A stretch of DNA of 64,000 nt from Pseudomonadota bacterium (GTDB lineage: Bacteria > Pseudomonadota > Alphaproteobacteria > Rhizobiales > MH13), in the NCBI GenBank assembly GCA_039024915.1, contig JBCCPK010000006.1:1-64000 (forward strand). The letters are read 5' to 3'. The notes under the pieces are model-generated. The model did no database searches, was not told the DNA's origin, and saw nothing but the letters and a program-made list of their open reading frames with translations. The position numbers and the translations under genes were made by a program. Of the stretch, positions 32,949 through 48,101 are shown in pieces (the stretch's first letter is position 1; every line of letters starts with the position of its first letter).

Positions 32949-34745
32949 TCAGACCATCGACAGATCGTCAACGATACCAAACGTTCGAATGTCTCCATCG
33001 TCTGTGGTGACTGTGCGCCCAATCACCGCGCCGCTCGCATCATAGTTGTACTCGATGCTTGCCCAACTGAAGGCATCCAGGGGATCCGTCTGCGAACCTG
33101 ATGTTGTGATACCGTTCTCGAACCCTTCGGTGAGAATGCGCCCATCATCAAATGTGAAAGTCCGCGTATCCCGGCTGCCATCTTCATTGAAGGTCTCATC
33201 GACAGTCGCCCAAAGGAAGGTGTCGGCCGTATCAAAACGTTTTATGGTTGTGACCGCACCATTGTCGAAACTGGTCTCGGTTTGCTGACCGTCATCGCGG
33301 ATCACCGTTTGTGCGGTTACGTTTCCGGCCTCATCGAAGGATTGGCTGAAGACATCCCACTGAAACAGATCGGCCGTTTCGCTGTCCGTCCGGGTGCGTT
33401 CGCTCAGCACGCCATCTGTGAAGGTTTCTTCGGTCTCGCGGCCGTCGTCGTATATCGTCGTCCTCTTGGCGACCGTTGAGCCATCTTCTTGAAACTCGGT
33501 TTCGACGGATGACCATATTTTGTCATCACCGACGTCTGTGCGCGTGGTCTTCGTCAGAACGCCTTCGACGTAGTCAAAGGTCGTCGTGATGCTGTCCTCG
33601 TCAGGGCCACTTAGCGTGGCGCTCGCGATTACGCCCTCTTCATAAGTTTCCTCGCGAACGCGGCCATCGTCATAATCGATGACACGGCTCACAAGAACGC
33701 CTTCATCGTCCGTGGTGTCGGTAATCTTGTCCCAAATCTTATCGCCGTCGACGTCCTCGCGAACGGTCGTGTTCGGCGGCAGCGGTGCGGTATCCTGAAG
33801 CGTAATCGTCACATCACCTTGGCCGTCTTTGATCTGAAAATCGCCGATGACACCCTGACCAAAGTCGACCAGCCGCCAGATCTGCTGTTCCGTACCTTGG
33901 TCGTCGTTCCGCAAGGGACCTGCCGGGTCGGTCAGTGAACCATCTGCAGTTCGATCCGGATCATCAAAGATCGGGATGCTGAAGCTGGCCGTTTCTTTCG
34001 TAATCGTGAAAGCGATGGAGTCATTAAGTGCACCACCCGATGGCGCTTGGATGCCATCAAGGCTGCCGAAAACGACGGGACTGAAGAAGCTCCAATCGCC
34101 CAGACCAAACTTATAGGTGTCCTCGCCGTCATCGCCTGGACGATAAAGCGCAAGACCCACACGCAACCCATCCTCGGGCAGGTTCTCTGTGGTAAATGTA
34201 AAGGTGAGGATCGTGCCTTCGTCTTCGGTGGCCACGGTCTGATCGACCGAGATGCTGACGACCGGCAGTTCATCGTCGCTGTCAAATTCGGTGAACGCTA
34301 TCGAGCTGTTCGTGACGGTATTGGCCTGCTCATCATCAGGATTATCGATAACGTTCCAGAAAACTTGCCTCGGGCCATCGTCGATGGCCGGGAATTCGGC
34401 AAAGCCATCGAAGGCAATGTAGCCCTCTTGCTCGGTGACACGTATCTCAATGACCGAAAAATCTAGTCCGTCGGAAACGTCGAAGTTGTAGCTGGTCGGA
34501 TCGACGATCCCTTCAAAGTCAGCCCCGCCGAAGAAAAAGGGAAGCAGATTGAACTGATTAAGTTCTGAATCGACCCCCGTAAGGGCGTCATCGATCGTGC
34601 CGTTCTGGTTGGGAGTCGCATAGAGGTACAGCGAGACAAACTCGCCCTCTGCAGGGGCCTCATCAAGCGAAAACCGGAAGAAGGTGGTCGACGCCGGGTC
34701 TTCGACAACGAACGGCGGATCGATGGAGAATGTTACGTTGGCCAT
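32949..34745 (-). CDS. Acidic Calx-beta-like protein with C-terminal 49-residue repeats, unknown function
   Basis: A 598-aa protein with no cysteine and a strongly acidic composition. Two Calx-beta-like modules lie at about 1-155 and 160-325 (the second opens PVVSISVDQTVATEDEG). Residues 331-598 hold five units of 45-51 residues plus a half unit (380-403), with consensus W near position 8-10, EDG or DEG, then a DDGR turn, an aromatic, and GV before an RT. No signal peptide is seen; the composition and the hydrophobic end DLSMV resemble type I secretion substrates, but no RTX nonapeptides or transporter genes are nearby. The start is the ATG reading ANVTFSIDP. Probably a secreted or surface protein; function unknown. 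Confidence 0.75.
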   Translation of the reverse strand: MANVTFSIDPPFVVEDPASTTFFRFSLDEAPAEGEFVSLYLYATPNQNGTIDDALTGVDSELNQFNLLPFFFGGADFEGIVDPTSYNFDVSDGLDFSVIEIRVTEQEGYIAFDGFAEFPAIDDGPRQVFWNVIDNPDDEQANTVTNSSIAFTEFDSDDELPVVSISVDQTVATEDEGTILTFTFTTENLPEDGLRVGLALYRPGDDGEDTYKFGLGDWSFFSPVVFGSLDGIQAPSGGALNDSIAFTITKETASFSIPIFDDPDRTADGSLTDPAGPLRNDDQGTEQQIWRLVDFGQGVIGDFQIKDGQGDVTITLQDTAPLPPNTTVREDVDGDKIWDKITDTTDDEGVLVSRVIDYDDGRVREETYEEGVIASATLSGPDEDSITTTFDYVEGVLTKTTRTDVGDDKIWSSVETEFQEDGSTVAKRTTIYDDGRETEETFTDGVLSERTRTDSETADLFQWDVFSQSFDEAGNVTAQTVIRDDGQQTETSFDNGAVTTIKRFDTADTFLWATVDETFNEDGSRDTRTFTFDDGRILTEGFENGITTSGSQTDPLDAFSWASIEYNYDASGAVIGRTVTTDDGDIRTFGIVDDLSMV

Positions 34746-35238
34746 AGTTGGACTGTCCTACTGATCAAGTGACGGAATGCGTCGGTTCTTGTGCCCGTTC
34801 GACGGCCAAAAGGCCGGCGCTTCGCCAATTTTCTCGCATGCTGCGAAATCTCAAAACTGCGTACACGAACAGGGCATTGCTGCGCATTCAACCAAACGGG
34901 CATGGCGCATGCCTACCCAAGCGTTGCGACATTATTTGCGTACATAATTATCGTCAAGAGAAGTTGAATTTCTTTTTCAACTATTTGCCTGAATTGGAGA
35001 GATTCTAAATCAAGCCCGATAAAATCGTATTTATTTTGCCTACAAACAAATATTTGTGCGACCATCGATGGATATGAGAAAACAATAGCGTACGACTTTG
35101 ACGTATATAATTGTGGTAATCGGTCAAACACTTGGCTCGGCAAACGACTGCATGCCGCTGAATTACCATACGCCCCACAGAGCGCCCTGCGATGGTGTAC
35201 CGGGCTTCTGCAAAGGTCTTAGACTTATCCGAGCAGCT
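34746..35238. other. AT-rich 490-base intergenic region
   Basis: It lies between the tonB stop and the start of the Calx-beta/repeat gene, so it should carry that gene's promoter. The part 34920-35110 is clearly richer in A and T than its surroundings and contains an AGTTGAA/TTCAACT hairpin near 34966-34986 and the palindrome ACAAATATTTGT at 35046-35057. No gene is recognised. Confidence 0.5.
35046..35057. promoter_or_regulatory. 12-base perfect palindrome, possible regulator site
   Basis: ACAAATATTTGT, inside the AT-rich region about 300 bases upstream of the Calx-beta/repeat gene. No specific regulator is recognised; it could also arise by chance in AT-rich DNA. Confidence 0.25.
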
Positions 35239-36099
35239 CTAGCCGCCGATACTGATTGGCAGCTGAAAACGATGGGTCTCGCCAGGCAGTTCGTTGGGCG
35301 CTGCGGGGAATCGCCCGGCACGAGCGACCGCCTCGAGGGCTGCGTTATCGGTATCGGGGCTGCCGGAAGACTGCAGCACACGGGTCTGTTGAACCTGGCC
35401 GTTTCGGTTGAGGACAATCTGGACGATCACCCGACCGGACTGGGCGCGAGCGCTCCTCGCGCGCCGTGCGATCTGCGCCTGTATCTGACCACCCCAACTT
35501 GCCATCAGGGATCGCTGCTGTCCGGGGTCAATGGATGCCACTTCTTGCGGTTGTGCAGTTCCTGCAATTGTTCCACCTCCGGTCCCAGCCGCTCTTTGTT
35601 CCCGGACCGCGGGCGCCGACGGCTGCGGACTTGGTTGAGCGCGCTCTGGCGGCGTCGGTCGCGGTCGCTCCGAAGGGGGCGGGGGAGGGACCGGAGCCGG
35701 CACGCTTTCCAATCTTGGTCGCACCTCTGGCTGAGATGGTAACTTGGTTGCGATCTCCTCGATCGGGGTCTCGACATCTGTCTGCTGGTCCGTGATCACG
35801 GGCTCGGGTTCGATTGGAGGTTCTGCTTCAGTTGTCGGCTGCACAGCCTCTTCTACTGGCGGCTCCGGCTCGGCGACTGTTTGCTCAAGCTGTGGATCGG
35901 GATCGTTGGCCGCCTCTTGTGCGGCCTCCCATTCCTCGATCACGGCTTGCATGGCTCCATCGGCGGCAGCAACGGAGACAAACACGTCCCCGCCAGACCC
36001 GCCGCTTTCGACGCCCTCTGCAGGCCATTGCAGCCATACGGCAACGTGAATCGCGAGCGCAAGTGCGAGAAAAACGACCTTCTCAATGGTTTGCCTCAT
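35239..36099 (-). CDS. tonB: Energy transducer TonB
   Basis: A 286-aa periplasm-spanning protein that passes inner-membrane energy to outer-membrane receptors. One N-terminal helix (VVFLALALAIHVAVWLQW, about 8-25) with the conserved His anchors it; residues 65-165 are the Pro/Glu-rich spacer, and the C-terminal TonB fold (about 205-286) includes GRVIVQIVLNRNGQVQQTRV and SGSPDTDNAALEAV. It overlaps exbD2 by four bases and ends the iron-uptake operon. Confidence 0.92.
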   Translation of the reverse strand: MRQTIEKVVFLALALAIHVAVWLQWPAEGVESGGSGGDVFVSVAAADGAMQAVIEEWEAAQEAANDPDPQLEQTVAEPEPPVEEAVQPTTEAEPPIEPEPVITDQQTDVETPIEEIATKLPSQPEVRPRLESVPAPVPPPPPSERPRPTPPERAQPSPQPSAPAVREQRAAGTGGGTIAGTAQPQEVASIDPGQQRSLMASWGGQIQAQIARRARSARAQSGRVIVQIVLNRNGQVQQTRVLQSSGSPDTDNAALEAVARAGRFPAAPNELPGETHRFQLPISIGG

Positions 36100-36479
36100 C
36101 GCGAACCTGTAACCAGCACGATGTCACCTGTATCCAGCCGCGCCAGACGCTGGACTAGTTCGGCAACAGTTGCGCCGTCAGCATTTGCGTCCGCACGGAC
36201 CAGAAGAACGTCACCGGAAGGCTGGCGAGCGGCAATCGCTTCGAACACCGCTTCGCCCGTGACTGTTCCAAAGGCCAGTTGACCATCCGCTGAGACGTAC
36301 AAGGGCTCATTGCCTTCGGCGACAGCCTCCGACTGCGAAACTGGAAGTGCAATCTCAAACGGGTCCGGTGGCGCGATTTGGGCGGTCATCAAAAAGAAGA
36401 TCAGCAACAAAAACACCACGTTGATCATCGGCACGTAGTTCTCAGCGCGTCTTTTGCGATCTGGCGCCCGCAACCTCAT
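36096..36479 (-). CDS. ExbD-like protein lacking the membrane aspartate (second copy)
   Basis: A 127-aa single-span protein of the ExbD/TolR family. The membrane segment reads YVPMINVVFLLLIFFLM: position 20 is Asn (codon AAC), whereas ExbD and TolR have an Asp there that is required for proton flow. The periplasmic domain (about 45-127) looks intact. It lies two bases after exbD1 and overlaps tonB by four bases, so it is co-expressed with a normal ExbD. It may form a mixed dimer with ExbD1 in which only one chain carries protons; that is inference. Confidence 0.88.
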   Translation of the reverse strand: MRLRAPDRKRRAENYVPMINVVFLLLIFFLMTAQIAPPDPFEIALPVSQSEAVAEGNEPLYVSADGQLAFGTVTGEAVFEAIAARQPSGDVLLVRADANADGATVAELVQRLARLDTGDIVLVTGSR

Positions 36480-36481
36480 AG

Positions 36482-36865
36482 CTATTGCGCCATCACAAGA
36501 CGTTGGAACCCCGCACTGCCGAGCTGCTCGGCGACATCGACAAGCCTTTGCAGCCTCGCCTCGTCCCGTGCACGGATGACGATAGGGTCGTTGATCGTGT
36601 CGGTGAGAGCTTCCAGCGCACGGATAAGCTCGGCCTCATCAATGCGTTCGCCATTCAGCCGGATCGCATCGGGAAGTATATCAACAATACGTGGCTGGTT
36701 GTTTTCTGACGCCGCCGTGCCTCCGGAACTTGCGGTTAGCGGGATGTAGTGGTCGAGCCCGAAGCGCGAGGCGAGCATAAAAAACACAAGCAGCAAGAAC
36801 ACCACATCGATCATGGGGGTCAGGCTGATTGCGCGGCGGCGCTTCTGCTTGCCGAGTGCGATCAT
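36482..36865 (-). CDS. exbD: Biopolymer transport protein ExbD (first copy)
   Basis: A 127-aa ExbD with the canonical membrane motif LTPMIDVVFLLLVFFML, in which Asp20 is the proton-carrying residue. The periplasmic part ends in SAGFQRLVMAQ. It shares one base with exbB (TGATG) and is two bases from the second exbD, so stoichiometric synthesis is expected. Together with ExbB it forms the proton-driven motor for TonB. Confidence 0.92.
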   Translation of the reverse strand: MIALGKQKRRRAISLTPMIDVVFLLLVFFMLASRFGLDHYIPLTASSGGTAASENNQPRIVDILPDAIRLNGERIDEAELIRALEALTDTINDPIVIRARDEARLQRLVDVAEQLGSAGFQRLVMAQ

Positions 36866-37545
36866 TATTCCGCCGCTTGCCGTTCTGGTTCCGGCGCGCG
36901 GCGCACTGTTCCGCGCGTGAAGACCTTTGTTGCCAGCCCTTCAACATCGGATTGAACGCGGTCAACCACGCTTTCAAACCATGTCAGAGCGACCGACACG
37001 GGTATTGCCACCGCCATACCGGCTGCGGTCGTCAAAAGTGCTTCCCAGATACCGCCCGCCAGAGTGGCTGGGTCCGCGCGCCCACCTTCGGCTTGGAGCG
37101 CCTGGAAAGCAGAAATCATACCCAACACCGTGCCAAGAAGCCCAAGAAGAGGCGCGATGGCGGCGATAAGTTCCATGGCGCGCAGTCCCGAACGCGCTTC
37201 CTGAAGGCTGGCCGCAGCAAAGACTTCGACCTCTTCACGGGCCGCCTCGTCCGAGACGTTGCGATCTAGGCGTGCTGACATTGCGCTGCGAACAATCCGG
37301 GAGCGAATGTCGCGTCCTGCCATTATTGTTTGGGCCGCCTGACGGATCTCGTTGTCAGTCCACTCCTGAACGGCGCGGTGCGCACGAAGCTTTGACCATG
37401 CGCCCAGCCGCCAAAGCTGCCAGACCTTCCAGAGGATCAGCGCGAGGCTGAACACCGACAGAGCGGCAATCGCCCAAATGGCCGGTCCGCCTTGAACGAG
37501 AAAAATCTGAAGGTTCTGCAACGGCCCGCCCGAAGACTGATCCAT
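36865..37545 (-). CDS. exbB: Proton channel protein ExbB (MotA/TolQ/ExbB family)
   Basis: A 226-aa inner-membrane protein, three helices: about 20-42, and the conserved pair APLLGLLGTVLGMISAF and LLTTAAGMAVAIPVSVAL, which carry the pore threonines. ExbB pentamers surround an ExbD dimer and use the proton gradient to work TonB. The ATG at 37545 is preferred over a TTG one codon earlier, with GGAG upstream. It follows the receptor gene by about 146 bases containing a hairpin. Confidence 0.92.
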   Translation of the reverse strand: MDQSSGGPLQNLQIFLVQGGPAIWAIAALSVFSLALILWKVWQLWRLGAWSKLRAHRAVQEWTDNEIRQAAQTIMAGRDIRSRIVRSAMSARLDRNVSDEAAREEVEVFAAASLQEARSGLRAMELIAAIAPLLGLLGTVLGMISAFQALQAEGGRADPATLAGGIWEALLTTAAGMAVAIPVSVALTWFESVVDRVQSDVEGLATKVFTRGTVRRAPEPERQAAE

Positions 37546-37645
37546 CAATCTGCTCCGTTATCGCCAACGCCGTTGAGTGTACGGCCTAAGCGTAGGTTAG
37601 TTGATCGCAAGGCACGACCATGCGCTGCGATTGAGGAACGCAAGG

Positions 37646-37690
37646 CCGACGCCCCATGAGCATGGGCATGAGCACGGGCCATGGCGTCGG
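37646..37690 (-). other. Inverted repeat between receptor and exbB genes
   Basis: CCGACGCC (37646-37653) and GGCGTCGG (37683-37690) can pair, extended by CATG/CATG with a bulge; the loop holds a direct repeat CATGAGCA(T/C)GGG. It begins directly after the receptor stop codon. No T-run follows; it may limit read-through or stabilise the receptor mRNA. Confidence 0.4.
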
Positions 37691-37691
37691 G

Positions 37692-39806
37692 TTAGAACGA
37701 TACGCGGACCTCGGCGCCCATGCGGCGCTCAGCCCCAAGGGACGCTTCTGCACCACCGCGCGTGATGCCGGTGATGTACTCTTCATCAAAGACGTTATCG
37801 ACGAACACGGTCGCTTTGACGTGATCGCGTTCAAAGCCAGCGCTGGCGTTGACGACCCAATAGTGGGACAGGAACTGGGTAGGATCGTTGGTGATAGACC
37901 CGTTCGAAAAAAAGCTGTCCGTGTAGGCTGCGTTAGCCGTCGCGAAGAAGCCGCTATCATGGTTGTAGGCAAAGCCAAGCGATGCCGTGAGGCTTGGAGC
38001 TTCGGGGAACTCGTTACCGGACAGATCCACGCCGTTGACCACCAGGGTATCGAACTCCGTCCGAAGCAGCCCCACCGACCCGAAAACCGATAGACCGTTC
38101 CCGAAATCGTATTGCCCCTCGAGCTCAAGCCCGATGCTCGTGGATTCGCCCGCGTTAAGCGTGCGCGCGAAGGGAACGGTCGCCCCTGCCACCAGTCTGG
38201 TGCCCGACTGCGCGATCTGTTGATCGGTGTAGCGCGTGAAGAAACCCGTCGCCCCAAAATTCCAGCGGCCATCGTCAGACCGGGTCTTGAAGCCAAGCTC
38301 AAACGAGTCGGCGTATTCAGGGTCAACCGTATAGATCGCGCCGTTGTTGGCTGCATCGCTTCCCGTAAATCCGGAACGGTAGCCGCGCTGATAGACTGCG
38401 GAGATCGTGGTCAGCTCATTGATGTCGTAGGCAAGGCCAAGCTTCGGCAGAAACTCCGTAAAGCTGGCTTCGGCGAGAATGTCGTTGTTGGCGGGCCCTC
38501 GGTCGTTAAAATCGTTCACCACAGTCTCACGAAGCAGACGCCCGCCGATGATGAAGCTGACGTCAGAATACTGCTCAAAGGGGCGCACGCGCAGATCGGC
38601 ATAGATACTCAGATGCTCGGTCTCGTTATCTGACTCGAGGTCTTGCAACACGTTCGGCCCCGCACGTACGACCGAATCTCGTGGCAAGGTGAAAAGCCCA
38701 TAATAAGCTCCGATGACACCTGATAGACGGTCTTCACTTTCGCCGATCTCGACACGTAAATCCTGCGTGAAGTCGCGCCCCTCGCGGTTCTCGCTGCGCT
38801 GATACAGCTGGCTTTGGGGCGTTGAAATCTCCGTGTCCGAAAGGACAAAAGAGCTCAATGATCGCAGCGTTAGCGTCGGGCTGAACTCATAACTACCTTC
38901 AAGGATGAAGTTCCGGTTTGTCGCCTCATAGACCTCGACTGTCGAGAACGCGGTTACCGAAAAGCGGCGATCAAAAAAGGAGTCATTGCCTGGAATGGCA
39001 GGATTGATGTTCACCGAGTTGACTGCGGGTCGGTCGAAGGTCTGCACGGCAGTGAACAGCAAAGACAGCCCGGGGATTTCGGACGGTTCGATCAAGACCT
39101 TGCCGCGAAGCGAGTAGAACTCATCGTCCTCGAACTCTTGCGCAAAGGGCGAGTTGTACGTGATGCCGTTGGTGCGGTTGCGCCATTCACCGCTCACGCG
39201 GAACGCAACCTGATCATCAATGATCGGTCCCGACAGGTAAAAGGCGCCGTCACGCTGGTCGAGCGTGCCCAGAGTGCCTTGGGCGGCTGCCTCCCACTCA
39301 AACGTCGGATCGCGTGTCGAGACGATCACCGCGCCTGCCAGGGCCGCACGCCCCTGGATTGCGGATTGGGGCCCACGAAACACTTCAACCTGTTCAACAT
39401 CCCAGATCCCGCGAGAGCCACGCCGCGTCGCTTCAAGCGATTGCGTGGCGCCGTCTATGATGACTGCAGTGACGGGATTGTTGTTCTGCGGCTCGGTTAG
39501 GCCGTCGGAATTGACACCCCGAATAGAGAAGCCGGCATTGCCTCGATTGCCTTCGTTCCAGCGCACATTGCCAAGCAGACTGAACCCCTCGCGAAGATCG
39601 TCGATGCCCTGCGCTTCGATTGCGTCGCCTCCGATGACGCCTACGCTGCCGAAGGTGTCCTCATAAGCGCGGTCAATCTTGCCGCCTTCGATGACGATCT
39701 CGTCGAGAACGAACCCGTCAGCATCATCAAGTTCCTGGCCATTTGCGTACGATATTGTACCTAAAATGACCGCGACTGTACTTGCGGAAAAAGAAACCCA
39801 ACGCAT
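37692..39806 (-). CDS. TonB-dependent outer-membrane receptor
   Basis: A 704-aa receptor. Residues 1-24 are a signal peptide ending in YANGQ; a plug domain follows (about 40-160, with RGVNSDGLTEPQNNNP and QVEVFRGPQSAIQGRAALAGAV), then a 22-strand-type barrel ending in EVRVSF, whose terminal Phe is the outer-membrane assembly signal. An upstream TTG at 39818 is possible, but the ATG at 39806 gives a cleaner signal peptide. With its own exbBDD-tonB and a FecBCDE importer in the same run it should bring in an iron-siderophore or related metal complex; the ligand is unknown. Confidence 0.9.
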   Translation of the reverse strand: MRWVSFSASTVAVILGTISYANGQELDDADGFVLDEIVIEGGKIDRAYEDTFGSVGVIGGDAIEAQGIDDLREGFSLLGNVRWNEGNRGNAGFSIRGVNSDGLTEPQNNNPVTAVIIDGATQSLEATRRGSRGIWDVEQVEVFRGPQSAIQGRAALAGAVIVSTRDPTFEWEAAAQGTLGTLDQRDGAFYLSGPIIDDQVAFRVSGEWRNRTNGITYNSPFAQEFEDDEFYSLRGKVLIEPSEIPGLSLLFTAVQTFDRPAVNSVNINPAIPGNDSFFDRRFSVTAFSTVEVYEATNRNFILEGSYEFSPTLTLRSLSSFVLSDTEISTPQSQLYQRSENREGRDFTQDLRVEIGESEDRLSGVIGAYYGLFTLPRDSVVRAGPNVLQDLESDNETEHLSIYADLRVRPFEQYSDVSFIIGGRLLRETVVNDFNDRGPANNDILAEASFTEFLPKLGLAYDINELTTISAVYQRGYRSGFTGSDAANNGAIYTVDPEYADSFELGFKTRSDDGRWNFGATGFFTRYTDQQIAQSGTRLVAGATVPFARTLNAGESTSIGLELEGQYDFGNGLSVFGSVGLLRTEFDTLVVNGVDLSGNEFPEAPSLTASLGFAYNHDSGFFATANAAYTDSFFSNGSITNDPTQFLSHYWVVNASAGFERDHVKATVFVDNVFDEEYITGITRGGAEASLGAERRMGAEVRVSF

Positions 39807-39880
39807 CCCAAGTCCCAATAGCTATGCGGCCTTTTAGGCGTTGGAAATTTCTTAAGTCAACCAGATAGGCGTACGCTTTC

Positions 39881-40930
39881 CTATTTTTTGCAAATTAGAT
39901 GCTGAAAAACGAGGGTGGCCGGATTGTGACCGCTGAGCGTGTTCGACAGATTTGCCAAGACGGCGATGGCGAGACCGTCATCAGGCCGGACATAACAACA
40001 GGCCGAGTAGCCCGGCACGTCTCCGTCATGGCCCCAAAAGGGAGAATAAGCGTGCGTGAGCAGAGCATAATGTTGCTCGTGCGAGGTGAAGAGGTCCTTG
40101 CACTCTTCAACCATTGAGCCAATCGATTTGGCCAAACCAAGCAGATCGGAGATCGTCGCGGCATAACAGCCTGCTTCCGCACTCCATGACGGATTGAAGT
40201 GCTCGGTGGAATAGAACGCCGATCCATATTCGATGTTCCCATCCGTACGACCGTAGCGATAGCCCCGCGCAAAGCCGGCACTTGGCGCAGGGCCAGGAAC
40301 GTAATGGATTGAGTGGTCGCCAATCTGGGCCGCCAGAGTGCTGGCGGCGACTTCTTGAAAAGGTTTCGCGGCGTTGGCTTCGATCACCTTGGCCAGTATC
40401 ATCGCATTGGTGTTTGAATAGCGGACCTGTGAGGGATCATAGGCGCGCTCTGTAACGTCAAAAGAGAACTGCAATGCCTCGTCACGGGTCCACACCCGAC
40501 CGAGGTCAGCATTGATGAGCGCACGAAAGGCGGGGTTGTACAGAGCGTCGGTGAAGCCCGTTCGGTGTTGGGCAAGCTGTGCGATTGTGATGTGCTCGCC
40601 GTCAGGGACATCCTTGAGGTAGCGGCACACTGGTGCGTTCAGCTCTATCTCTCCCGCACGCAAAAACCTTCGCAGGCACAGTCCGATTATCAGTTTGGAC
40701 ACGCTGCCAATGCGAAAGTGCACACCACTGCGCATGGTTTCGCGGGTCTCAAGGTTCGCAACGCCGAAAGTGGCCGTCTTACAACCTGATGGACCCGAAA
40801 CACCCACGATAAGCCCGGGGAGGCCCTGACCGTGGAGTTTCTCGAAGACGCTGGATAAGCCAACCGCCCCATGGGCGGTTTCAACACCGGGTGCTTCTGT
40901 TTTCATCGCTGCCGTTCTCTCATCAGCCAT
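39881..40930 (-). CDS. Cytosolic serine hydrolase of the beta-lactamase/class C esterase family
   Basis: A 349-aa hydrolase of the beta-lactamase superfamily. The nucleophile motif SVSK (Ser76, Lys79) and the YSN motif (Tyr171) are present, and HDGDVPGY near the C-terminus stands at the third motif. No signal peptide is seen for either candidate start (40930 or 40906); an upstream extension to 41032 would overlap the preceding gene. So it is probably cytosolic. It sits in the iron-uptake run between another hydrolase gene and the receptor gene. It might open an ester or lactone of an imported ligand; penicillin-degrading activity is not implied. Confidence 0.82.
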   Translation of the reverse strand: MADERTAAMKTEAPGVETAHGAVGLSSVFEKLHGQGLPGLIVGVSGPSGCKTATFGVANLETRETMRSGVHFRIGSVSKLIIGLCLRRFLRAGEIELNAPVCRYLKDVPDGEHITIAQLAQHRTGFTDALYNPAFRALINADLGRVWTRDEALQFSFDVTERAYDPSQVRYSNTNAMILAKVIEANAAKPFQEVAASTLAAQIGDHSIHYVPGPAPSAGFARGYRYGRTDGNIEYGSAFYSTEHFNPSWSAEAGCYAATISDLLGLAKSIGSMVEECKDLFTSHEQHYALLTHAYSPFWGHDGDVPGYSACCYVRPDDGLAIAVLANLSNTLSGHNPATLVFQHLICKK

Positions 40931-40953
40931 CAGGGTATCTGAAGTGACATGGC

Positions 40954-42798
40954 CTAAGCGGACCACGTCATGAGGGGCAGCCAGCTTTGGGTCGCAAGAA
41001 ACCCTGCTGCGATGCTCAGCCCGGCAATGCACGTCAAGGCTGCGACGCGACCTAGAGCGCTCATGTGACGGTACGTTTTAACGGACGCCCATATGCCAAG
41101 CAGCAGCAAAACGGGCCAGCCGATACTCAGAGCGAACAGCGTTACTGATCCGGCACCAACGACTCCAAGGCTGGCCACGGTGTCGATCGGTGCCAACATC
41201 CCCCAAAGGACATGAAGCACCTGCAAAGCTAGCAGGCCGGTGGCGGCTCCGCCAAGCAGAAGCCTCCAATATGAGCCAGGTCCCAAGCGCTTTCGAAACA
41301 GGCCTTGCAGCGATGTGAACAAGAGCAACCCAACGCCCAAGAAGGTTGCAAAGACCGCAACCCAGAACCCAGCGACGTGTCCGGCGGCGGCGAGCGCGCT
41401 TATCTTCCGGTAGCTGTTCTGTTGGTCGCCGAGCAAGAAGAGGTCTTCGCCCAGTGGCGTGAAGACATGGGTGCCAACCGGAGCACCCAAAGCACGAAAG
41501 ATTCCATTGCCCAGCGGCTCCAGTTCCGCCTCGCCTATGGGAAGCAACGCAGATGCGATGGTGAGGTTGGGCGAGGCGTTCGAAACCCGAACAAGGCCAA
41601 GCGCGTGCGTGATCCAGGCGCGCAGCTCCATGTCATCGGTAAAGGGTCGATACCAGCCAGCAAGGTCAAGCTCGTTCGCAGTTGCCGATGAAGGGTTTCC
41701 AGTTTCGCCAACCACCGATGCGTTTTTGATAACGTGCTCCGCAAGAACCTGGCGAATAGCCGCGAAGCCTTGGCGGTTGCTCGTGTTGCTCGCGAGCGCG
41801 AAGCCGTCCGTGGATCCATCCAGGATCCCGAATGTCGCCTGTGCGCCGTCTATCCGGCCCCAATGCCCCCAGAAGACGTGATCGGCCTGCAGAAAGCCAA
41901 ACGTTCCCAGCCCGTATGCCAGATCATAGCCTGCGCGCGCAGCCAGCGAGGTCTGCGGCCTGCGCATTTGGATGAGATCACTCGACAAGGGTGTTGTTGA
42001 TGACGGTACTTCGGCGGATGCGTGTGCAGCGGCATAGATGGCAAAGTCTGCCATTGACATCGCAAGCGAGCCGGCGGGCCGGACTGAAAGCTCCCAAAAG
42101 TGTGCCCGGTTACCAGCATCATCAAACGTCGCCGGGCGGGACGCAACGCTCTCATTCCAAGCAAAGGTGGCAGTCGACAGACCCAAGGGGTCAAAGATGT
42201 GCCGAGACGCCAGCGCATCGAAGCTCTCGCCGGTCGCAGCCTCAAGCGCCGCTGCGGCTGCCGCGATACCCATGTTCGAATAGGAGTAGAAGCGTCCGGG
42301 TGGCCACCGCACCTTACCACCGTAACCCGCCAAGACGTCCGTTGCAGACAAAGGTTCAGAAGCGTCGGCATATTCGCGATAGGACGAACCTGGAAAACCT
42401 GCGGTATGTTCCAGCAGCATGCGTATCGTGAAGGGATCGCTTGCCGCCCATGGGTTTTCACCCCATCCGGTGGGCAGTAATGGCTCTGCTGGTTGATCAA
42501 GATCGACGGCGCCTTCGGCTGCGAGCTCCAGTGCGAGCAAGGCTGTGACGTTCTTTGAGACCGAGCCAAGTCGCAACAGGTCGGTCGTTGCGAGGGCCCG
42601 ACCATCAGGCTCGATGGTGCCGAGGGCACGCACATCGCGGACAGCTCCATCTTCGATAAGGGCGTAAGCAACGCCAACCATTGCGTGTTCCACGCGGATG
42701 GCATCGATCCGCTCCCCCAACGTATCGTCCGCCAGGGTGTCTGAGACGGCCTGGGCGATTAAGGCAGCTGAAATGACAAACAGAAATAGGCAGCGCAT
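40954..42798 (-). CDS. Membrane-anchored serine hydrolase of the beta-lactamase family
   Basis: A 614-aa protein with a signal peptide (1-23), a beta-lactamase-fold domain (about 25-370) with SVSK (Ser79, Lys82) and YSN (Tyr173-Asn175), a linker domain, and four C-terminal membrane helices (about 470-610). The catalytic domain should face the periplasm. Its start shares one base with the stop of the fecE-like gene, so it belongs to the importer operon. A role in processing the imported iron complex or a peptide or ester group on it is inferred only from context. Confidence 0.82.
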   Translation of the reverse strand: MRCLFLFVISAALIAQAVSDTLADDTLGERIDAIRVEHAMVGVAYALIEDGAVRDVRALGTIEPDGRALATTDLLRLGSVSKNVTALLALELAAEGAVDLDQPAEPLLPTGWGENPWAASDPFTIRMLLEHTAGFPGSSYREYADASEPLSATDVLAGYGGKVRWPPGRFYSYSNMGIAAAAAALEAATGESFDALASRHIFDPLGLSTATFAWNESVASRPATFDDAGNRAHFWELSVRPAGSLAMSMADFAIYAAAHASAEVPSSTTPLSSDLIQMRRPQTSLAARAGYDLAYGLGTFGFLQADHVFWGHWGRIDGAQATFGILDGSTDGFALASNTSNRQGFAAIRQVLAEHVIKNASVVGETGNPSSATANELDLAGWYRPFTDDMELRAWITHALGLVRVSNASPNLTIASALLPIGEAELEPLGNGIFRALGAPVGTHVFTPLGEDLFLLGDQQNSYRKISALAAAGHVAGFWVAVFATFLGVGLLLFTSLQGLFRKRLGPGSYWRLLLGGAATGLLALQVLHVLWGMLAPIDTVASLGVVGAGSVTLFALSIGWPVLLLLGIWASVKTYRHMSALGRVAALTCIAGLSIAAGFLATQSWLPLMTWSA

Positions 42799-43625
42799 CA
42801 GTTGGCGTCCCCATTTGCCGTTTCGGGTAAACGGGCGGGGCGCAGCGGAACGAAACCGCGTATGCTGCCATCCACATGGTGGAGCATTTCGCCATCAATC
42901 CCGAAAACGTCAAAGAGAATTTCCGGCCCAATCACCTCATCCGGCGCGCCCTGAGCAACAATTCTGCCATGCTGCATAACGATCAGGGACCGGGCGAACA
43001 CCATAGCTTGATGCAGGTCGTGCATGACGGCGACAATGGTTGTTCCACTGTCACGGTTCAGCTTGGCCAGAAGCTCAAGAATCTCAAACTGATGATGTAC
43101 GTCGAGATAGGTTGTCGGCTCGTCCAGCAGGATGATCTCCGTCTGCTGTGCAAGCACCATAGCGAGCCACGCCCGCTGTCGCTGGCCGCCGGAAAGCTCG
43201 GCAAGGGGCCTATTGCCCAAATCCGTTATGCCGGTGGCCAGGAGGGCATCATCGAGCGCAGCTTGGTCCGCTCGCGTCCAACCGGCAAATAGCGAGCGTT
43301 GCGGATAGCGTCCCTGGGCAAGCAACTCGAGCACCGTCATGCCCGGCGGTGCTTCCGGGTGCTGGGACAGGATACCCAGTTGTTTGGCAACCGCTTGCGT
43401 TGGCAGCTGATGAATGTTCTGCCCGGAAAGCAAGACCTCGCCGGCCTTTGGCTTCAAGACACGGCCGAGCGCTTTCAATAGGGTCGATTTTCCGCAGCCA
43501 TTTGGTCCAATGATGATTGCGAAATCGCCCTTGGCGATGCGCAAATCAAGCCCACTACAGATCGTCGTTCCGCCATAGCCAAGGCTGAGTGACCGGCCCA
43601 AAAGCGCGACGTCTTGATCAGACAT
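42798..43625 (-). CDS. Iron-complex ABC transporter ATPase (FecE/FepC family)
   Basis: A 275-aa ATPase. Walker A is GPNGCGKST (40-48), the signature is LSGGQRQRAW, Walker B is ILLDEPTTYLD, and the H-loop is VMHDLHQA. The GQNIHQL and SQHPEAP stretches are typical of siderophore and vitamin B12 importers. It overlaps the permease gene by eight bases and shares one base with the next hydrolase gene. Confidence 0.92.
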   Translation of the reverse strand: MSDQDVALLGRSLSLGYGGTTICSGLDLRIAKGDFAIIIGPNGCGKSTLLKALGRVLKPKAGEVLLSGQNIHQLPTQAVAKQLGILSQHPEAPPGMTVLELLAQGRYPQRSLFAGWTRADQAALDDALLATGITDLGNRPLAELSGGQRQRAWLAMVLAQQTEIILLDEPTTYLDVHHQFEILELLAKLNRDSGTTIVAVMHDLHQAMVFARSLIVMQHGRIVAQGAPDEVIGPEILFDVFGIDGEMLHHVDGSIRGFVPLRPARLPETANGDAN

Positions 43626-44670
43626 GGGCAGACCGCTGCGCTGCGCTGCCAGAGGTGGAGCGGATCATCAGAAACAGGAAGTAGGGTGCTCCAAGCAGAG
43701 ATGTGACGATACCTGCTGGCAGCTGCGCGGGGGCGATCACTGTGCGTGCCGCCAAATCGGCGAATGCGCATAAGGCGGCGCCCACCAGAACCGCGACCGG
43801 CGCCGCAGCTCGATGTTGATGGCCCACCAACAAGCGTGCGGCATGTGGGGCAATTAAACCCACAAACGCGATGATCCCACCGATCGCGGTGGCGACGGAC
43901 GCCAGGATAACCGCCACCGCCAGCAAGGCGAGCCGTGTTGTCTCGAAAGGAAGTCCAAGCCCGACAATCGACGTGCGGTCGAGGTTCAGAACATCCAACT
44001 GGCGGTGGCTGAGGAAAAGTGCTGCGCAGCCCATCAGGGCGAAGACCATCAACAATTGGGCCTGGGCAACCGTGACGCCACCAAGGCTGCCGGAGAGCCA
44101 CGCAAGAGCGCGTTGCACCGCTTGCGGCTCTGCAAACAGGGTGATCAGTGAGATCAACCCGGAGCACAACGCGCCGACACCAACACCAGCGAGGATCAGG
44201 CGGCCGGTGTTTGTTCCTGACTTCCAGCTGACCAGGTAAACGATGATCGCGACCAGCATGCCGCCAATGCAAGCAGCGAGCGTGAGAGGCAGGCCGGCGG
44301 CGAAGGGTAGGGCACCAAGGCTGATGCTGACCGTTGATAGAGCGGCCCCTGCGTTGATCCCCAGCAAGCCTGGCTCCGCTAAGGGGTTTCGAACGACCGC
44401 CTGAAGGATCAGGCCCGATGCGGCTAACATTGCGCCAATTGCCAGTGCCGCAACGGTGCGTGGTCCGCGCAGCAACAGAACAAGCTCGTTGGTGGTGTCA
44501 CCAGCGCCCGCCGGAGCAAAACCAAGAAGATGCGCAAGAACCTGCCAGTCAGGCCTTCCCCCTGAAAGACTGGCAAAAAACACCATGATCGACGCCAACA
44601 GCGCGATGATCACCACGGGCCAGAAGCGATGGCTCAACGTCGATTTTGGCGCTTTGGCTCGCATCTTCAC
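43618..44670 (-). CDS. Iron-complex ABC transporter permease (FecCD family), second subunit
   Basis: A 350-aa permease with about ten helices. Family marks are LLRGPRTVAALAIGAMLAASG, RNPLAEPGLLGINAGA and GLIAPHAARLLVGHQHR, the last being the coupling region with the ATPase. It overlaps the fecC-like gene by four bases (ATGA). With that gene it should form a heterodimeric permease. Confidence 0.92.
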   Translation of the reverse strand: MKMRAKAPKSTLSHRFWPVVIIALLASIMVFFASLSGGRPDWQVLAHLLGFAPAGAGDTTNELVLLLRGPRTVAALAIGAMLAASGLILQAVVRNPLAEPGLLGINAGAALSTVSISLGALPFAAGLPLTLAACIGGMLVAIIVYLVSWKSGTNTGRLILAGVGVGALCSGLISLITLFAEPQAVQRALAWLSGSLGGVTVAQAQLLMVFALMGCAALFLSHRQLDVLNLDRTSIVGLGLPFETTRLALLAVAVILASVATAIGGIIAFVGLIAPHAARLLVGHQHRAAAPVAVLVGAALCAFADLAARTVIAPAQLPAGIVTSLLGAPYFLFLMIRSTSGSAAQRSAHV

Positions 44671-45674
44671 GCTCCGCGCCTAAGAATGAGCAGAAAGAAG
44701 GGCGCTCCAATCAGGAGCGTTGCCACGCCAACCGGTGCTTCCGCCGGCGGTGCGAGGATCCGAACAATCGCGTCCGAAAACAGAAGAAGAGCTGCGCCAA
44801 CCAATACGGCGACCGGCAGGCACATCGTCAAGCGACCGCCGACAATGCTTCGTGCAACGTGCGGAGCGATTAGCCCGACAAAGCCTATCGGGCCGGCGAT
44901 GGCGACCGCGAGGCCCGCAAAGCAAAGCGCGAAGAGCAGTGACAGCACCCGCGTTTGCAACGGATCGATGCCAAGCCCTGTCGCTGTTTCATCGCCCATG
45001 CTCAAAATGGTGAAGCGTCCACTGTATGCCCAGGCGAGCAAGGCAACGATCAGGATGATGACACCTAGTGGCACGACCACGTTCGGTGGCCGATCCGCCA
45101 GCGACCCAGCAAGCCAGACACGCGTATCGCCAAGCGTATTGGTATCAAGCGACAAAACGGTGGTGGTCAGTGCAGCAAACAGAAGGGCGAGGACAGCGCC
45201 GGACAAGATGAGCCGGGTTTTGCTTGCGCCAACACTCGAAAAGCCGCCAGCCAACGCAAAGGCCATGGTCCCGGAAACGACCGCGCCGACAATTGCGGCC
45301 CCGGTGCTCGAAAGAAGCGTCAACTCGCCGGGGAAGAGCGCCGTATAGAGGACAACAGCAAGACCCGCGCCCGACGAGATCCCCAAAAGGCCCGGCTCCG
45401 CCAACTCGTTCCTGGTAAGCGACTGAAGCAACAAGCCGCTGATCGCGAGCGCCGCGCCAACGGACAGCGCGCCGATGATCCGAACTGCGCGTAGCGACGC
45501 AACGGTCGCATCAGTTGCCGGTAGGTCCTGTGCAAACAGAAAGCCCATAACCGCCGATGGTCCTAGCGGGTAGGCTCCTGCGAGAAAGCTTACGGCAATC
45601 CCGCAAAAAACAAGCACGTATAGCGCGAGTAGGCCGGGGGATCGCCAAGTCAACTCGGCACGAGCGCTACTCAC
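44667..45674 (-). CDS. Iron-complex ABC transporter permease (FecCD family), first subunit
   Basis: A 335-aa permease, ten helices, with LRAVRIIGALSVGAALAISG, RNELAEPGLLGISSGA and GLIAPHVARSIVGGRL. The frame remains open upstream to 46073 through the binding-protein gene, but a GTG at 45674 overlaps the stop of that gene by eight bases (GTGAGTAG) and gives the family length, so it is chosen as the start. Confidence 0.9.
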   Translation of the reverse strand: MSSARAELTWRSPGLLALYVLVFCGIAVSFLAGAYPLGPSAVMGFLFAQDLPATDATVASLRAVRIIGALSVGAALAISGLLLQSLTRNELAEPGLLGISSGAGLAVVLYTALFPGELTLLSSTGAAIVGAVVSGTMAFALAGGFSSVGASKTRLILSGAVLALLFAALTTTVLSLDTNTLGDTRVWLAGSLADRPPNVVVPLGVIILIVALLAWAYSGRFTILSMGDETATGLGIDPLQTRVLSLLFALCFAGLAVAIAGPIGFVGLIAPHVARSIVGGRLTMCLPVAVLVGAALLLFSDAIVRILAPPAEAPVGVATLLIGAPFFLLILRRGA

Positions 45675-46635
45675 CGAGGAAGATGCGTTCGATATCGTCA
45701 AGGATCGCTTCAGCCGAGTGCAGCCCGCCAAACGCCGTCCAATGATCGGGGGAAACTTCGTGGGCTTGATCGTCAGCGACAGCAGGGATTTCCGCCCACA
45801 GAGGATGGTTGACCGTCTCGCTGCGAAGGGTGGACCCTTGTGACACGTGATGCCCGCCCCCAAAAACGTAAAGCAGGACATCGCCATCCAACAAAGGCAC
45901 ACCTTCCCAAGTGGGCCGGATGAAAACGGTATCCCCATCGGTTGTTTCGGCCGCAGGTCGACCGATGCCGACATCGGACAGCACCGCCATCGGGGCGTAG
46001 GCAGATGGCCCGTCGAGATAGACCTGAAAGCCTCCCGGAACGATCCGCAAAAACGAGGCTGTAACCTCGCCATTCAACTGATCTTGCAGCTCTGCAAGGC
46101 GTTCCTTATAGGCGGCGAGGCTTTGTTCAAACTGGCGACTGGAGTTCGTCGCTTCGCTGATGACCTCGAAGTAAGTTTCCCAGTCCGCCGTATCGACCAA
46201 AACCGTCGGCGCAATGCGCGTCAGGTTTTCCAGCAAGCGTTCGTGCATATAGGCATCGCCGAGAATCAGATCGGGCTGTGCAGACAACAACTCTTCAAGG
46301 CTGGGCTCCTGGAACTGCCCGAGATACACAATCGAGCTTAGCTGATCCTCAGTTGCGAGATCTGTCACGCCAGCTGGCCACTGGGGACCCGAGCGAGCCG
46401 CGGCAACAACTGGCAGGTCCAGATAAAGGGCCATTTGCATATTGAAATATGGGTCGAGGACGGCAATGCGTGCCGGAACGTCCGGAACACAGACGGCACC
46501 GCCTACGATGTTCGAGCTCTCCAATAGACGGCCGCTGCAGGCCTCGCTTGCCCAGCTCGAGCGAGCTTCCGATAGATTTGCGACGCTCAACAGGAGCATG
46601 GCCAAGAAGACGCACGCTGAAGGGCCCCTTCGCAT
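45667..46635 (-). CDS. Iron-complex ABC transporter substrate-binding protein (FecB/FhuD family)
   Basis: A 322-aa periplasmic protein with an N-terminal signal peptide (about 1-25) and no lipobox cysteine, so it is soluble. PARIAVLDPYFNMQMALYLDLP, LSAQPDLILGDAYMHERL and the end HPLWAEIPAVADDQ are typical of siderophore-binding proteins. The frame is open to 46869, but the ATG at 46635 follows AAAAGGTGA and starts the signal peptide, so it is chosen. It is the first structural gene of the importer, about 420 bases after tetR. Confidence 0.88.
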   Translation of the reverse strand: MRRGPSACVFLAMLLLSVANLSEARSSWASEACSGRLLESSNIVGGAVCVPDVPARIAVLDPYFNMQMALYLDLPVVAAARSGPQWPAGVTDLATEDQLSSIVYLGQFQEPSLEELLSAQPDLILGDAYMHERLLENLTRIAPTVLVDTADWETYFEVISEATNSSRQFEQSLAAYKERLAELQDQLNGEVTASFLRIVPGGFQVYLDGPSAYAPMAVLSDVGIGRPAAETTDGDTVFIRPTWEGVPLLDGDVLLYVFGGGHHVSQGSTLRSETVNHPLWAEIPAVADDQAHEVSPDHWTAFGGLHSAEAILDDIERIFLGE

Positions 46636-46815
46636 CGCATTCACCTTTTGCACGTTTCCATACCGCCGCATGGCGCAGACGGTTCCTGACGGTACCGAAC
46701 CTCTGCTTGCAACCCGCGACGATCGCTGCGCCTTCGTAAGGGCCAGCCGAGCTCGAAAAGACCGGTCCACAAAAGCGAGGTCGGGCGCGCACCCTTCCGC
46801 TTCGATGGCCAGGCT

Positions 46816-46832
46816 TTTCATACCGTTCGAAA
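46816..46832. promoter_or_regulatory. ICE-like 7-3-7 inverted repeat, copy 1
   Basis: TTTCATA-CCG-TTCGAAA: five of seven arm positions are symmetric. Extended leftward, CTTTT-N3-ACCGTTCGAAA is shared with copy 2 (16 of 19 bases). About 180 bases upstream of the binding-protein gene. Confidence 0.4.
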
Positions 46833-46927
46833 TCAAATTGGGGTTATTATCGCGTACAGAGCGAGTCAAGCTACAGCACTCCGCGCGCTACGGCGTAGCC
46901 AAGCAAAAGCCCAAAAAACAACAGTCT

Positions 46928-46944
46928 TTTAGAACCGTTCGAAA
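46928..46944. promoter_or_regulatory. ICE-like 7-3-7 inverted repeat, copy 2
   Basis: TTTAGAA-CCG-TTCGAAA: six of seven arm positions are symmetric. The left arm equals the half-site TTTAGAA that I recall for the Irr iron control element of Hyphomicrobiales. It lies upstream of the importer genes. Confidence 0.5.
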
Positions 46945-47058
46945 GTATGCCCGGATTTCATGATGCTAATGGCGTACATGATGTCCAGGAATGCGGCGGA
47001 ACTGAGTGGGAGTGACGTTCGCAATAGCGCGTGTCGGCTGAGCCAGCTTGAAGGGAGC

Positions 47059-47769
47059 TTACACTGCGGGCTGCGTGCTGTTCGACGCCCACAACAGGAC
47101 ACGTCGGACATTGGAGATATAGGGCTCCACCTCGGGGGGTTCTGATGCCATGTCCTTTTCGACCATCCGGCTAATGGTCGGGTATTGCTCGTGATCCCAA
47201 TGGACGGGGCTGGGATCGCGGCTTTGCATGCGCCGGTCCCACGCCTCCATCAACATGGCTTCGCCATACGTGTAGTGCATAAGCGTATGAAGCGTGTGGA
47301 AGGCGACATCGTCGGACATGCCAAGCTTCTTCAGCGCGACGACCACGCGCTCGTTAATTGCCAGAACGTGCGCATTGCCGCCTGCATAGTTGACCATCAC
47401 CGTGATGACCCAAGGCTCAGATCGAAACAGGGAATACAACCCATCGAAGATCGAAAGCAGCTCGTCTATCGGGTCTTTCAGGCGGCGCAACTTGACACGC
47501 TTCAAAGCGACCCCAAGCATCTCCGAAAGCAGATCATCGCGATCATCGATGTAGCGATAGAGCGACATGGTGCCGACGCCGGCTTCCGTCGCGATCCGGC
47601 GCATCGTGACGGACGAGCCCCCATCGCGCCGTGCGATGGTCAATGCCGTCGCAACAATCTTCTTTCGTGACAGTTTTCCGGACGGCTTGCGACCGCGCCG
47701 CGACTTCTTCTCGCCGGGAGATGGGCTGTCGATAGCCGTACGTGTCTGGCCGTCTTGCGATAAGTCCAT
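47059..47769 (-). CDS. TetR/AcrR-family transcriptional regulator
   Basis: A 236-aa regulator. A basic N-terminal tail (about 15-35) precedes the HTH: KKIVATALTIARRDG, then MRRIATEAGVGTMSLYRYI. The C-terminal ligand domain has the pattern of the tetracycline-repressor C-terminal family. AAGGAT lies upstream of the ATG. It is in the same direction as, and upstream of, the iron importer, with a perfect 17-base inverted repeat 38 bases before its start. It may sense the imported ligand or its breakdown product; that is inference. Confidence 0.88.
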   Translation of the reverse strand: MDLSQDGQTRTAIDSPSPGEKKSRRGRKPSGKLSRKKIVATALTIARRDGGSSVTMRRIATEAGVGTMSLYRYIDDRDDLLSEMLGVALKRVKLRRLKDPIDELLSIFDGLYSLFRSEPWVITVMVNYAGGNAHVLAINERVVVALKKLGMSDDVAFHTLHTLMHYTYGEAMLMEAWDRRMQSRDPSPVHWDHEQYPTISRMVEKDMASEPPEVEPYISNVRRVLLWASNSTQPAV

Positions 47770-48101
47770 GGCATCCTTGCCGCGCGCCGCACATTAGGTC
47801 TGCAACCTTAGAACAATTCTAAGATACCAATCATTACCCTGCAAATTGCTGGAGATGCAAGCGGAAAAGTTGATCGTTTAGTCCCTGATACGGAGCGCTG
47901 GCTACGCGATAGATGACTGAGAACGCCTTTTTGAACACTACCTGCCTGGCATTTCTTTTCAGCACTTTTGTACGCAAATTACGCGTTTCATGGTGGGACC
48001 AGCCACTCCAAATTTATCCGCTGGAAGGCTCGCGGAAGACCGGCATAGACTGCGAGTAAAACGTGCGGGGAGGACTACGCGCCGGTGTCCTTGTTAGGCG
48101 A
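47770..48101. other. 330-base region upstream of tetR
   Basis: Between the frcK stop and the tetR start. It holds the inverted repeat at 47807-47823 and presumably the tetR promoter. The rest shows nothing recognisable. Confidence 0.5.
47807..47823. promoter_or_regulatory. Perfect 17-base inverted repeat upstream of tetR (ICE-like or TetR operator)
   Basis: CTTAGAA-CAA-TTCTAAG: seven-base arms, perfectly symmetric, three-base centre. Its inner part TTAGAA-N3-TTCTAA equals the core I recall for the Irr iron control element; alternatively it is the TetR protein's own operator. It lies 38 bases before the tetR ATG. Confidence 0.6.

Follow-up and report, generated by a model that had tools for sequence, protein, structure and literature searches.

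Trilactone siderophores are well known to give up their iron through hydrolysis, by esterases of the alpha/beta-hydrolase fold. Fes, IroD, IroE and Cee are periplasmic or cytoplasmic siderophore esterases that free iron, and all of them, together with PfeE, are trilactone esterases with this fold. PfeE is described in one report as a hydrolase paired with siderophore uptake (PMC8001512). A similar partnership is proposed here for a locus in a 64,000-nt stretch of DNA (the window, to which all positions refer) from a Pseudomonadota bacterium (Rhizobiales; MH13; assembly GCA_039024915.1, contig JBCCPK010000006.1). Twelve genes on the minus strand form a TonB-powered Fec-type uptake locus for an iron complex, within which two serine hydrolases of the S12 superfamily, H1 and H2, precede a TonB-dependent receptor. 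Receptor, H1 and H2 make up a conserved unit that recurs in other genomes.

What would such enzymes do beside a receptor? The best single guess, with about an even chance of being correct, is that they cleave a siderophore in the periplasm, the substrate, the bond and the release of iron being presumed parts of the scheme. Its observed basis is the gene content, the intact catalytic motifs and the recurrence of receptor, H1 and H2. A ferric siderophore, most likely from other microbes, would cross the outer membrane by way of the receptor, which the ExbB, ExbD and TonB of the same locus energise. H1, and in the relatives also H2, would act as a periplasmic S12 hydrolase that cuts the ligand, once imported, at an amide or ester bond, with H1 held at the membrane by its four helices. 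Cleavage would either free the iron or shrink the ligand enough for the next transporter, and FecB with FecCDE would then move the iron complex, or its remainder, across the inner membrane.

Association of the hydrolases with the receptor

A profile search of GTDB genomes with the receptor returned 80 relatives. Both hydrolases are carried by two of the genomes with these relatives, G629 (locus L145) and G630 (locus L169), and their orthologues were found at those two loci only; L159 has a remote S12 protein. A further case, G640, came from a search within the order of G629. Identities to the window proteins are 51% (receptor), 45% (H1) and 34% (H2) in G629, 53%, 45% and 33% in G640, and 34%, 39% and 34% in G630, where exbB, exbD and tonB follow. 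H1 adjoins H2 in all four genomes, near a related receptor, and the three relatives are alphaproteobacterial. With the trio present in four genomes, the association is not accidental.

Do the hydrolases belong with the importer or with the receptor? FecCD lies within 6 kb in 24 of the 80 receptor loci, and neither H1 nor H2 is found within 12 kb in any of the 24. At the G629, G630 and G640 loci, the 15 to 40 kb of sequence read contain no recognisable Fec genes. It is thus the receptor, rather than the Fec importer, that the hydrolases accompany, and only in the window was the receptor-H1-H2 unit seen joined to such an importer. The initial annotation had paired the hydrolases with the Fec-type importer, and this pairing is not supported: the outcome named at the outset as its refutation, homologous importer operons without the hydrolases, is largely what the loci show, and of the two linkages expected from the neighbourhoods, the one to the receptor stands (four genomes) while the one to FecCD was seen in the window only. 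Fec-type loci of the same receptor family in Shinella, Agrobacterium and Rhizobium resemble the window in joining a receptor to FecBCDE, but H1 and H2 occur in none of them, and FecI/FecR take the place of the window's tetR.

In a phylogeny of 86 S12 proteins (support values are SH-aLRT) the four H1s group together (99), as do the four H2s (88), and the two clades are far apart. The pair is therefore not a recent duplication, and a tandem-duplication origin was rejected. On the receptor tree the window sequence clusters with those of G629 and G640 (100), whereas the G630 receptor falls in a different clade; the hydrolase pair thus accompanies receptors of two clades. When H1 and H2 were searched across the order, the matches were distant S12 paralogues only, plasmid searches with the two gave distant serine hydrolases only, and an exact-peptide scan using H1 alone gave no match. 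The best matches of H2 in the order-wide search were S12 domains in open reading frames (ORFs) about 1200 aa long, which recur in seven or more genomes of that order (L032-L036, L038, L039; G100, G244, G131, G217, G159, G205, G243). One of these (L061, in G100), read whole, appears to place an S12 passenger on the cell surface by means of an autotransporter-like barrel that follows it, and was not taken to be an informative gene fusion. Another adjacent S12 gene pair, with a 4-nt overlap, lies at positions 7984-10547 of L142 (G263), with a CAAX-protease-like gene next to it and a MatE transporter nearby; it is not orthologous to H1 and H2 on the tree.

Enzyme class and location of H1 and H2

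H1 (40954-42798, minus strand, 614 aa; PF00144, E=2e-36) and H2 (39881-40906, minus strand, about 341 aa; PF00144, E=4.5e-34) match PF00144 only, and motifs and fold place both in the S12 serine hydrolase superfamily. The SVSK and YSN motifs first noticed in the two proteins were found again, and a third can be added, HWG in H1 and HDG in H2. SxxK, YxN and HxG are kept across the aligned H1s and across the aligned H2s. The HxG motif is also the third motif of the R61 DD-peptidase and of D-aminopeptidase. H1 and H2 are intact S12 hydrolases, and by these motifs they resemble DD-peptidases and D-aminopeptidases more closely than class C beta-lactamases.

H1, whose identification also draws on a structural model, PDB matches and orthologues, begins with a signal segment, which is followed by a catalytic domain, a beta domain (residues ~380-466) and four long C-terminal helices, placed by the AlphaFold model (mean pLDDT 78.8) at 468-501, 507-534, 549-574 and 581-603. 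The signal peptide and four helices originally ascribed to H1 are thus borne out, the former in the sequence and the latter in the model. The top PDB matches of the model are the Pyrococcus penicillin-binding protein (PBP) homologue (Pab87 type), Ulm16, SurE, esterase IS11, the R61 DD-peptidase and the Lip3 DL-peptidase. The initial description as beta-lactamase-fold enzymes is right about the fold, but D-peptidases, D-aminopeptidases and PBP-type cyclases are the enzymes suggested by HxG and by the closest structures.

Could a more specific assignment be made? The NCBIfam scores of both proteins are far under every curated cut-off. Class C beta-lactamase was rejected (35-39 bits against a cut-off of 415, with HWG or HDG in place of KTG), and so were AmpH (57 against 266) and D-aminopeptidase (31-35 against 443). 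The same scores bear on two other explanations. The hydrolases might protect the cell by detoxifying antibiotic-siderophore conjugates, or beta-lactams, taken up via the receptor; the fold is common to class C beta-lactamases, and a TetR-type regulator could conceivably sense a drug. However, the class C score and the missing KTG speak against this very improbable explanation, and no tetR was noticed next to the other loci. Alternatively, H1 and H2 might be cell-wall enzymes, DD-carboxypeptidases or endopeptidases, that merely share the operon and, for example, remodel the wall around the TonB complex. The PDB sequence matches do include the R61 DD-peptidase, and there are weak matches to AmpH and D-aminopeptidase. 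On the other hand, the latter scores are those just given, the linkage recurs with one receptor family and not with cell-division or wall genes, and H2 of the window is apparently not exported; a role in the wall is quite improbable.

Several of H1's nearest solved structures act at D-residues, and for this reason the most likely substrate would be a siderophore of nonribosomal peptide type that contains a D-amino acid. The same preference would also suit a receptor that imports some non-siderophore peptide, for example one with D-residues, which H1 and H2 digest for nutrition. Tandem transmembrane-anchored S12 genes lie beside TonB-dependent receptors in an unrelated lineage as well (L140 in G262, L143 in G394). 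Still, the FecBCDE and receptor families indicate iron complexes, and siderophore type is the best-scoring class for the L140 receptors too; nutritional uptake is an unlikely explanation. L140 also has an M19 dipeptidase and an alpha/beta hydrolase, and may be an independent receptor-plus-S12 locus for peptide uptake.

The location of H2 differs between genomes. Its most likely start in the window is the ATG at 40906, preceded by a ribosome-binding-site-like sequence, and the longest ORF begins at 41032. Even the longest ORF has no hydrophobic N-terminus (best 15-residue hydropathy 0.88, against 1.46-1.95 in the orthologues), which confirms the lack of a signal peptide noticed at the outset. 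The orthologues start with signal-peptide-like sequences, RRRVLQCGLAVALAGLWPGLSKVRAAD (twin-arginine-like) in G629, QRRWVFRCGLAMAVAGVWPCLRKAQA in G640 and MRLRCFVVFLAMFTPSAMAQ in G630, as judged by eye and by hydropathy rather than by a signal-peptide predictor. The claim that one hydrolase lies on each side of the inner membrane thus fits the window, judging from its sequence, but not the three orthologous loci, where H2 has an export-like signal; among the four genomes, the two-compartment arrangement looks like a peculiarity of the window. Without an export signal, H2 of the window would either act in the cytoplasm after import or be a lineage-specific remnant. Its branch on the S12 tree is long (1.57, against at most 0.6 for the others), which would fit an altered constraint after the loss of export.

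The receptor, its neighbours and the remaining genes

The receptor (37692-39818, minus strand, 708 aa) has plug and barrel and, in Pfam, no N-terminal signalling domain; with ExbB, ExbD and TonB it completes a TonB-dependent uptake set. Its best subfamily is TIGR01783 (TonB-siderophor; E=1.7e-53), at 182 bits, under the curated cut-off of 223.5. Where might the siderophore come from? Neither a nonribosomal peptide synthetase (NRPS) condensation domain nor an IucA/IucC synthetase was found in the window genome, a 97.6%-complete draft. Within the limits of that draft and those two families, the ligand is thus likely to be a foreign siderophore, made by other microbes and acquired by theft. Relatives of the receptor adjoin FecBCDE and FecI/FecR, as well as NRPS genes on Agrobacterium plasmids and dihydroxybenzoate genes in Rhodovulum. 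The NRPS and dihydroxybenzoate neighbours hint at catecholate-type ligands without fixing the ligand.

About 490 bases below tonB, outside the cluster as initially delimited, lies a gene for a 598-aa protein (32949-34745, minus strand) with no Pfam family. It has no signal peptide, as would be expected of a type I secretion substrate, and its first two domains match repeat regions of the G629 and G640 surface protein in the same order, one at 45% over 171 aa (E=1e-33) and the other at 26-29%. (Its predicted structure, with a mean pLDDT of 44.6, was not used.) In G629 and G640 the space between receptor and H1 encodes a PrtD-type ABC exporter (TIGR01842; in G629 723 bits against a cut-off of 510), an HlyD adaptor (TIGR01843) and a DUF4347/cadherin-like protein of 1270-1730 aa. 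The window genome has a homologous exporter (50%) and adaptor (41%) on another contig. A locus in a Rhizobiales genome (L155, 9965-19521) combines a receptor relative and FecBCDE with type I secretion genes, a PrtD/HlyD-like pair at 45-49% identity to that of G640; neither the hydrolases nor a surface protein were recognised there.

Hydrolases, receptor and secreted repeat protein might make up a single system for secretion or for the cell surface, with the hydrolases acting on the secreted protein or on a ligand that it captures outside the cell. G629 and G640 share this gene set with the type I secretion genes, and a related gene stands beside tonB in the window; however, G630 has receptor, H1, H2 and TonB system with no such protein recognised nearby, and the window gene does not adjoin type I secretion genes, its nearest exporter homologue being the one on the other contig. 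Such a system is quite unlikely. An unlikely reading would unite the receptor, the two unrelated S12 hydrolases and the type-I-secreted repeat protein in a hitherto undescribed module for uptake and processing: the secreted protein would capture the ligand outside, the receptor would import it, and cleavage of a peptide bond by the hydrolases in the periplasm would free the iron.

All twelve ORFs were found in the order initially given, and Pfam and NCBIfam matches, including those of FecBCDE, the receptor and ExbB/ExbD/TonB, give secure family assignments and uphold their reading as a locus for iron-complex uptake. All on the minus strand, tetR (47059-47769; 236 aa, TetR_N and TetR_C_1) comes first, followed by fecB (45667-46635; periplasmic binding protein with a signal peptide, Peripla_BP_2, E=4.3e-15), fecC (44667-45701, start approximate; PF01032, E=2.7e-77), fecD (43618-44670; PF01032, E=6.9e-80) and the ATPase gene fecE (42798-43625; ABC_tran). 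The fecB start, most likely the ATG at 46635, was picked by a ribosome-binding-site-like AAAAGG. Besides this FecCD pair, the genome has just one other strong FecCD locus. Beyond the hydrolases and receptor come exbB (36865-37548; PF01618), two exbD genes (36482-36865 and 36096-36479; both PF02472) and tonB (35239-36099; PF03544/TIGR01352). The 1-8 base overlaps described as prevailing are present at five junctions (fecC/fecD, fecD/fecE, fecE/H1, exbB/first exbD, second exbD/tonB). The exceptions are gaps of about 47 nt from H1 to the best-supported H2 start, which leaves no overlap between the two, 62 nt from H2 to the receptor and about 143 nt ahead of exbB.

Upstream of tetR is a 17-bp palindrome, CTTAGAATTGTTCTAAG (47807-47823; two strand matches, 0.02 expected by chance), in which TTAGAAnnnTTCTAA (47808-47822) occurs without mismatch. 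Allowing up to two mismatches, TTAGAAnnnTTCTAA has three copies in the 64 kb against 0.51 expected, and one of 100 shuffles reaches three. All copies are intergenic, the exact one ahead of tetR, one with a single mismatch between tetR and fecB (46929-46943) and a weak one with two mismatches ahead of the downstream gene (34994-35008). The palindrome presumably resembles the alphaproteobacterial Irr box, or ICE. Irr boxes are described in PMC3413700. The palindrome could be an Irr-box/ICE-like iron-control site or, equally, a TetR operator.

Comparison with known systems

Several points weigh against siderophore cleavage as the function of H1 and H2. The S12 fold spans peptidases, esterases, amidases and cyclases, and the fold alone does not fix the bond that is cleaved. 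H1-type transmembrane-anchored S12 enzymes are also found in settings without receptors (L137-L139), and in G640 and G629 the hydrolase pair adjoins genes for type I secretion and for a surface protein, not an ABC importer. Moreover, the known loci number four, two from one order, and the three relatives are from draft assemblies, one of them a 15-kb contig (L145/L234).

How does the unit compare with described S12 enzymes? ClbP, ZmaM and XcnG have an N-terminal periplasmic S12 catalytic domain and a C-terminal transmembrane domain, with Ser or Thr at position 188 (the third of the YxN motif) and three transmembrane helices as the ClbP signature (PMC9889268). H1 shares the general layout, but has Asn at that site, an extra beta domain and, in the model, four helices, and the window genome has no NRPS condensation domain. 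With YSN or YAN in H1 and its orthologues, a prodrug-activating peptidase of the ClbP type was rejected. The Pab87-type Pyrococcus PBP homologue, SurE, Ulm16, the R61 DD-peptidase and D-aminopeptidase have the fold and SxxK/YxN in common with H1 and H2; unlike H1, the PBP-type enzymes belong to other pathways and have no transmembrane domain, and identity in the structural alignments is 15-26%.

Full-text literature searches found no S12 siderophore hydrolase. Degradation of amphibactins has been observed, in passages that name no gene (PMC11800396). The recurring receptor and S12 pair provide concrete candidates for the degradation of peptide- or amide-linked siderophores, and such enzymes might, speculatively, even open siderophore-antibiotic conjugates. 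Like Fes, IroD, IroE, PfeE and Cee, the hydrolases proposed here would be paired with siderophore uptake to free iron; in contrast to the alpha/beta-hydrolase fold of Fes, IroE and PfeE, H1 and H2 match PF00144 only, and H1 is tethered by four predicted transmembrane helices. The combination of a receptor with two S12 enzymes suggests, as far as sequence can tell, that imported iron carriers are processed by a route not yet described, and, if true, this would be a new form of hydrolase-assisted siderophore uptake beside that of the trilactone esterases.

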